NCBI GenBank assembly: GCA_018268595.1
Contig: JAFDWH010000008.1
Location: 1 to 64,000, forward strand
DNA: 64,000 nucleotides
Direction of reading: 5' to 3'
Source: Actinomycetota bacterium
GTDB taxonomy: Bacteria; Actinomycetota; Thermoleophilia; Solirubrobacterales; Solirubrobacteraceae
The notes under the pieces were generated by a model. The model was not told the origin of the DNA, did no database searches, and was given only the letters and a program-made list of their open reading frames with translations. Shown here in pieces: positions 30,281-34,492 of the stretch. The position numbers were made by a program, and so were the translations under genes. Position 1 is the stretch's first letter; the number at the start of each line of letters is the position of its first letter.

Positions 30281-30750
30281 TGCCGCGCCGCGCCGCAGCC
30301 GCCGTCCGAGCGATCGAGCCGGACGCCATCCATCGCTCCCGCCTCGTCCAGCAGGTCATCAACCGCGTGATGCTGGACGGCAAGAAGTCCACCGCCGAGC
30401 GGATCGTCTACGACGCGCTCGCGATCATCGGCGAGCGCACGGGCAAGGATCCGATCGAGCAGCTCGAGGCGTCCCTCAAGGCGCTGACGCCGCAGCTCGA
30501 GGTCCGCTCCCGCCGCGTCGGCGGCGCGACCTACCAGGTTCCCGTCGAGGTGCCCGCGCGTCGCGCCCGCACGCTCGCCGTCCGCTGGTTGGTCCAGTTC
30601 GCGCGCCAGCGTCGCGAGAAGACGATGGCGCAGCGGCTCGCCAACGAGCTGATGGACGCGCTGTCGCAGCAGGGCGCCGCGTACAAGCGCAAGGACGACA
30701 TCTACCGCATGGCGCAGGCCAACAAGGCCTTCGCGCACTACCGCTGGTAG
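30280..30750 (+). CDS. rpsG: 30S ribosomal protein S7
   Basis: A 156-residue S7 of standard length: MPRR start, then [26 protein letters not shown] near 22-47 and [18 protein letters not shown] near 106-125, ending AFAHYRW. S7 nucleates assembly of the small-subunit head and contacts E-site tRNA. The start overlaps the stop of the rpsL-like fragment (TAATG), so translation may be coupled to that seven-codon frame. A terminator-like hairpin follows. Confidence 0.96.
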
Positions 30751-30782: not shown

Positions 30783-30815
30783 GCGCCGCCGTCGAGCGGC
30801 GCTTCGTCGTTCTCG
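30783..30815 (+). terminator. Terminator-like hairpin after rpsG
   Basis: GCGCCGC (30783-30789) pairs with GCGGCGC (30796-30802) around CGTCGA, followed by TTCGTCGTTCTCG. The same 13-nt tail is found after rplL. It would separate rpsG from fusA, which has its own promoter downstream. Confidence 0.7.
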
Positions 30816-30889
30816 ATCGAATCGCCCGAGGTCCGAGCCGGCCGGGGAATCGGCGGCGGCGGCGGCCGATCCGTCCGCAGTTCCTCTGC

Positions 30890-30895
30890 TATATT
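30890..30895 (+). promoter_or_regulatory. fusA promoter (-10 TATATT)
   Basis: TATATT is the best -10 match in the window, in a local AT-rich patch of a GC-rich region. The -35 position (CGATCC, 30867-30872) is poor. Transcription would start near 30902, giving a leader of about 185 nt before fusA. Confidence 0.6.
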
Positions 30896-30959
30896 CCCTC
30901 GCCGCCTCCGGGGACTGCGCGTGCGTTTGCGCAGGTCGCCGCAACGGAGGTCACGAGCC

Positions 30960-30980
30960 ATGGAGACTTCCACTCGATAA
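30960..30980 (+). CDS. Six-codon leader peptide METSTR before fusA
   Basis: ATG at 30960 has a strong Shine-Dalgarno site (ACGGAGG, 30944-30950, 9 nt upstream) and encodes METSTR followed by TAA. Two Thr codons are ACT and the Arg codon is CGA, low-GC choices against the CGC/ACG preference of neighbouring genes. The frame ends 35 nt before the terminator stem. It is placed as expected for an attenuation leader peptide that senses translation speed or drug-stalled ribosomes. Confidence 0.6.
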
Positions 30981-31015
30981 GACGCCGGCCCCGGGACGAC
31001 ATTCCACGTCACGAC

Positions 31016-31037
31016 CGGGCCCACTGGGCCCGTTTTT
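31016..31037 (+). terminator. Intrinsic terminator/attenuator upstream of fusA
   Basis: CGGGCCC (31016-31022), loop ACT and GGGCCCG (31026-31032) form a perfect 7-bp GC stem followed by TTTTT (31033-31037). This is the cleanest rho-independent terminator in the window, and it sits between the promoter and the fusA start, 49 nt before the ATG. Confidence 0.85.
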
Positions 31038-31086
31038 GTGCCCGGCGCCACGACCGCCTGACAGCCAGAGAAGAGACCGCACCCAC

Positions 31087-33189
<2,103 letters not shown>

Positions 33190-33307: not shown

Positions 33308-34492
<1,185 letters not shown>

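Follow-up and report, generated by a model that had tools for sequence, protein, structure and literature searches.

A putative ribosome-mediated attenuator with a six-codon upstream reading frame precedes the elongation-factor operon fusA-tuf in Solirubrobacterales

The gap between rpsG and fusA in the 64,000-nt stretch of contig JAFDWH010000008.1 analysed here (hereafter the window, from a member of the Solirubrobacteraceae, Actinomycetota) contains a leader made up of a promoter, a 5' hairpin, a very short upstream open reading frame (uORF) and an intrinsic terminator. Comparison with related genomes indicates that this element is probably a ribosome-mediated transcription attenuator of the elongation-factor operon fusA-tuf. 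The existence of an attenuator is well supported, whereas the exact switch is not proven, since the structural evidence depends on the clade considered. The antiterminator is convincing in some clades only, so that we infer the sign of regulation; translation of the uORF and the switch itself are likewise inferred.

A first-pass annotation of the window, made from the sequence alone, had proposed a translation-sensing attenuator controlling fusA, and all the sequence features that it listed are present (the -10 element, ACGGAGG, the METSTR frame, GGCCCCGGG, the GTCACGA pair, and the 7-bp terminator with T5). The gap is bounded by the rpsG stop at 30750 and the fusA ATG at 31087, and the leader and the genes behind it are laid out as follows, all on the + strand:

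30887-30895, +: extended -10 element TGC-TATATT, read directly in the sequence
30901-30951 (borders approximate in the window), +: GC-rich 5' hairpin region, P1, supported by folding z-scores and compensatory changes in relatives
30944-30950, +: Shine-Dalgarno-like ACGGAGG of the uORF, read directly
30960-30980, +: uORF METSTR, six codons (ATG GAG ACT TCC ACT CGA TAA), an ORF conserved in relatives
35 nt between the uORF stop and the terminator, +: spacer, with GGCCCCGGG at 30987-30995, read directly
30987-30993, +: putative antiterminator 5' strand GGCCCCG, from the predicted fold of the pre-terminator transcript
31016-31032, +: intrinsic terminator, a perfect 7-bp GC stem with a 3-nt loop (CGGGCCC-ACT-GGGCCCG), followed by T5 at 31033-31037
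31087-33189, +: fusA, elongation factor G (EF-G; NCBIfam TIGR00484, 1107.9 bits)
33308-34492, +: tuf, elongation factor Tu (EF-Tu; NCBIfam TIGR00485), second gene of the operon

No -35 consensus was detected at the window promoter, and transcription probably starts near 30901. In the predicted fold of the pre-terminator transcript, GGCCCCG pairs with 31012-31013 and 31017-31021, inside the 5' arm of the terminator. A scan of the window yielded 2 terminator-like sites in 3 kb against 0.4 +/- 0.6 expected. The rarity ascribed to the leader codons ACT and CGA was also confirmed, as they make up 2.3% of Thr and 2.4% of Arg codons, respectively, in nearby genes. The curated covariance models of Rfam gave no match to the leader, the whole window producing a single tRNA match at gathering thresholds. 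On folding energy alone the window leader is unremarkable (z -1.03), and the case therefore rests on comparison.

A short ORF followed by a terminator was found upstream of fusA in all 30 loci first fetched from relatives (the window's own counted). A covariance model, R1, which covers the stretch from uORF to terminator and was built from 30 fetched fusA loci, matched 129 of 201 Solirubrobacterales genomes at E-values up to 0.1, two or three of these matches being weak and partial. Positive genomes comprise 82 of the 112 of high quality and represent 38 of 51 genera, and the R1 matches in the order show the element to be nearly always single-copy and adjoining fusA. Outside the order, the class sample yielded only five marginal matches (E 0.01-0.1) and the phylum sample yielded none; there, fusA mostly lies close behind rpsG without such a leader. 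A -10 element of the TGCTAnnnT type was found in 113 of 114 oriented leaders, a terminator was detected by script in all oriented relatives but one, and every full-length R1 match covers the terminator. The recurrence of the whole arrangement across the order thus goes far beyond chance. A lack of conservation of the leader frame or the terminator, which the first-pass annotation had named as grounds for abandoning its proposal, was looked for in the relatives, and conservation was found instead; control of fusA by a leader ORF and a terminator is strongly supported.

Leaders of other composition were also observed within the order. In genus g32 (L145, L146, L171) the promoter is kept and the six-codon uORF is absent, and the leader has another conserved stretch with GGGACC/GGTCCC repeats, possibly marking a different kind of leader. 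Upstream of fusA in L154 (genome G035) and L143 (G042), a promoter and a terminator are found with no uORF, the terminator of L154 coming almost immediately after the promoter.

The form of the uORF is strongly constrained. A start codon (124 ATG, 3 GTG, 2 TTG) and an in-frame stop are present in all 129 full-length R1 matches, and the frame comprises six codons in 116 of them, seven in eight, five in three, eight in one and nine in one, with no comparable length peak in the two remaining reading frames; R1 is blind to reading frames, and only 30 of the 129 sequences were used to train it. Two of the five-codon frames have CAA at the old aligned stop and a stop at codon 6; in the nine-codon frame, CAG replaces the stop and the next in-frame stop lies three codons further. 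The distance from the uORF stop to the U-tract is nearly fixed (median 50 nt, quartiles 49-52). Of the 116 six-codon uORFs, 96 have A as the last base of codon 6, whereas in the host genes used for comparison A accounts for 2.4% of third positions and for 2 of 86 bases preceding a stop. This codon is chiefly ACA or AGA, which represent 0.7% of Thr and 0.2% of Arg codons, respectively, in the fusA and tuf genes of the relatives. The peptide, on the other hand, varies: 84 distinct peptides are encoded by the 116 six-codon uORFs, and among the codon changes that separate 47 independent close pairs the synonymous fraction (0.18) is no higher than for randomly placed changes (0.22 +/- 0.04). Codons for Thr, Ser and Arg are frequent, with no run of a single amino acid. 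Taken together, the statistics on ORF length, stop distance, codon 6 and peptide suggest that ORF length, stop position and the rare last codon are under selection and the peptide is not. The METSTR frame of the first-pass annotation has thus held up in its length, its stop position and the rare A-ending codon before the stop, but its amino acids and most of its codons are not kept. A Shine-Dalgarno site, present in the window, is common only within its genus (5 of 6 leaders), with 22% overall compared with 9% in shuffles.

Three further candidates were considered and rejected. Conserved regulatory codons of the kind found in amino-acid-sensing leaders (trp/ilv type) were not recovered, the peptides being diverse and the synonymous share as random, and neither was a conserved arrest peptide as in nascent-peptide leaders (ermCL type), as the peptide varies freely. 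The GTCACGA duplication that the first-pass annotation had pointed out exists in the window (30950-30956 and 31008-31014), but it is not kept in sister species and looks accidental.

The genes on either side of the leader were identified by an in-frame check of the window gene products (EF-G, EF-Tu and ribosomal protein S7). The window shares the order uORF-terminator-fusA-tuf with relatives belonging to four families, and rpsJ follows tuf in every case in which the sequence retrieved extends that far; the pattern used in the gene-order survey failed to pick up the uORF of G014/L255, which was nonetheless recorded in the comparison of relatives. Genus g8 is informative with regard to the target. 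In two of its species the leader is still followed by the native fusA, which shares 76-78% identity with that of the window, whereas in four others (L173 = G013, L183 = G149, L230 = G167, L266 = G172) the leader sits directly on tuf, an order read directly in G172 as rpsL-rpsG-leader-tuf. These four species carry elsewhere a fusA of 61-62% identity, with no such leader in the upstream sequence available. Retention of the leader form after loss of fusA points to control of the elongation-factor unit fusA-tuf(-rpsJ) rather than of EF-G alone, and fusA as the target is therefore only part of the picture: it does lie behind the leader, but in four species tuf alone follows.

Those four g8 species present a case of a replaced EF-G gene. 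The window's own genome encodes, outside the window (G000:C10:137202-139250), another EF-G-like protein that shares 41% identity with the first one.

Regarding RNA structure, P1 is more stable than shuffled sequences (mean folding z -1.73 over 126 leaders) and shows compensatory changes at 6 of 9 pairs in family f3; it has no conserved sequence motif, and the part of the leader best conserved in form is the uORF. The spacer of f2 and f3 is variable except for a conserved CGGGC island, located around +8 from the uORF stop, which pairs with the GCCCG of the terminator in 97% of cells. Since the island hardly varies, this pairing counts as conservation and not as covariation. The first-pass annotation had looked to covarying stems for confirmation, and these were found in P1 of f3 but not in the f2/f3 antiterminator. 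In f2, the next bases, which lie in the terminator loop, match the island in 94% of cases versus 82% in shuffled sequences (p 0.007, uncorrected for relatedness). In g1, the window's genus, and in g34, the region after the stop forms a more stable fold than shuffled sequences do. Once its first 10 nt are masked, the terminator arm is predicted to become free in g1, g34 and f2, and to a lesser extent in f3. In g8, g9, g14 and the like, a post-stop hairpin overlaps the terminator only slightly. Inspection of the alignments by eye revealed no general protector pairing of the trp type, in which the uORF or the sequence upstream would bind the antiterminator strand; folding energies of the whole leader and spacer gave no general support, and an ungapped column-pair scan of one clade revealed no clean covariation. 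Clear equivalents of the alternative pairing with the terminator 5' arm drawn for the window exist in several clades, though it is not demonstrable in every one.

The reading that we favour, as more likely than not, is a model in which the decisive variable would be the position of the ribosome and not the peptide. The transcript from the extended -10 promoter would carry the 5' hairpin, the six-codon uORF, a spacer of ~33 nt and the terminator ~50 nt past the uORF stop. When translation is good, the leading ribosome would arrive at the uORF stop, where the rare A-ending codon perhaps prolongs its dwell, and its front edge would mask ~10 nt past the stop, blocking the antiterminator strand, so that the terminator would form and fusA-tuf would be damped. 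When initiation or elongation is limiting, be it through scarcity of EF-G or EF-Tu, starvation or a drug that targets ribosomes, the ribosome would be absent or held near the AUG, leaving the post-stop strand free to form the antiterminator and allowing the polymerase to read through. An initiating ribosome on a frame of about six codons would have a front edge that still falls short of the stop codon. We also put forward, tentatively and at somewhat less than even confidence, that the uORF acts as a peptide-independent six-codon ruler tuned to the ribosome footprint and setting EF-G and EF-Tu supply, a ribosome at the start permitting read-through and one at the stop forbidding it. The ribosome-position model as a whole is favoured because the element is conserved with fusA throughout the order, because the ORF is constrained without constraint on the peptide and has a rare A-ending last codon and a fixed distance from stop to U-tract, because the antiterminator core is conserved in f2/f3 and the masking effect is predicted in g1, g34, f2 and f3, because the leader stays on tuf after the loss of fusA, and because the same logic has been published for whiB7/wblC and ilvB1.

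Several observations weigh against this model. The uORF or the entire element has been lost in several lineages of the order (g32, g33, G042, G130, G035), indicating that it is dispensable over evolutionary time, and the majority of uORFs have no Shine-Dalgarno site. Over all elements, pairing between spacer and terminator does not exceed that of shuffled spacers, and in f4 the antiterminator strand starts too far from the stop to be covered by a stop-bound ribosome. Moreover, masking is predicted to act in the opposite direction in g8, g9, g12 and g14, where covering the first 10 nt after the stop leaves the terminator arm paired and not free. Such a result would be expected under regulation of opposite sign, in which a ribosome lingering at the uORF stop or just beyond it, for instance unrecycled when EF-G is short, hinders the terminator and leads to read-through, whereas rapid clearance leads to termination. 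EF-G acts in ribosome recycling, a rare last codon would lengthen the stay at the stop, and this arrangement would also constitute negative feedback on EF-G. Nevertheless, the reverse masking effect is predicted in g1, g34, f2 and f3, and the actinobacterial relatives known in most detail operate in the other direction, making the opposite sign unlikely in our judgement, if still deserving of attention.

The retention of promoter and terminator without a uORF in G042 and G035, together with an antiterminator that is not demonstrable everywhere, would also agree with a leader without any switch, in which a leaky terminator gives a constant level of read-through and the uORF merely keeps the leader RNA translated or protected. 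The six-codon length, the rare last codon and the fixed distance between stop and terminator would then be left unexplained, and we consider such a fixed-level leader decidedly improbable. Lower still is the likelihood of a sensor whose peptide (Thr, Ser, Arg) or drug-dependent arrest sequence brings the ribosome to a halt: these codons are common in the uORF and short uORFs elsewhere do sense drugs (PMC12121999), but 84 different peptides among 116, with neither a synonymous excess nor a run of one amino acid, speak strongly against it. Binding of the leader by a protein (S7, EF-G or EF-Tu), the uORF being incidental, is given the least credence. S7 controls the E. coli str operon (discussed in PMC2965389) and P1 is a conserved hairpin, but P1 has no sequence motif, the uORF is the part best conserved in form, and the leader persists on tuf alone.

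The element is in keeping with an attenuator that reads the general state of translation, as the whiB7/wblC uORF does, and not with an amino-acid or peptide sensor. In the whiB7/wblC leaders of Actinobacteria, which respond to general translation stress, uORF translation promotes termination (PMC11550727), and a short uORF, an intrinsic terminator and a proposed antiterminator are common to both systems. However, whiB7/wblC controls a stress regulator, whereas the element described here, judged by gene linkage, belongs to fusA-tuf and not to a WhiB7 gene; its fixed six-codon length and rare last codon also set it apart. The proposed blocking of the antiterminator by a stop-bound ribosome resembles ilvB1 of M. 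tuberculosis, where the ribosome at the uORF stop masks the mRNA and prevents the antiterminator, so that the terminator forms (PMC13236596); ilvB1, unlike the present element with its lack of conserved amino acids, senses branched-chain amino acids via regulatory codons. Very short uORFs that report the state of the ribosome to a downstream structure are also found in lmo0919 (rli53) and toiL (PMC11550727, PMC12121999), but these belong to resistance or accessory genes and not to core elongation factors, and toiL acts on translation and Rho. No uORF attenuator of fusA or tuf was found in the part of the literature searched. The nearest case is a predicted rpsG-fusA terminator of streptococci (rpsL-leader family), a predicted attenuator directly upstream of fusA (PMC2965389), which differs in that no leader ORF is described there and the phylum is another.

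Apart from the E. coli str operon model, little is settled about how bacteria adjust the supply of elongation factors to demand. If the proposal is correct, a conserved fusA-tuf uORF attenuator would provide direct feedback from ribosome progress to elongation-factor transcription and would add the core translation machinery to the resistance and biosynthesis genes in which translation-sensing attenuation operates.

Directly 3' of rpsG in the window, a hairpin (GCGCCGC-CGTCGA-GCGGCGC) followed by TTCGTCGTT occupies 30783-30810 and has counterparts in sister species; it is likely the end signal of the rpsL-rpsG unit.
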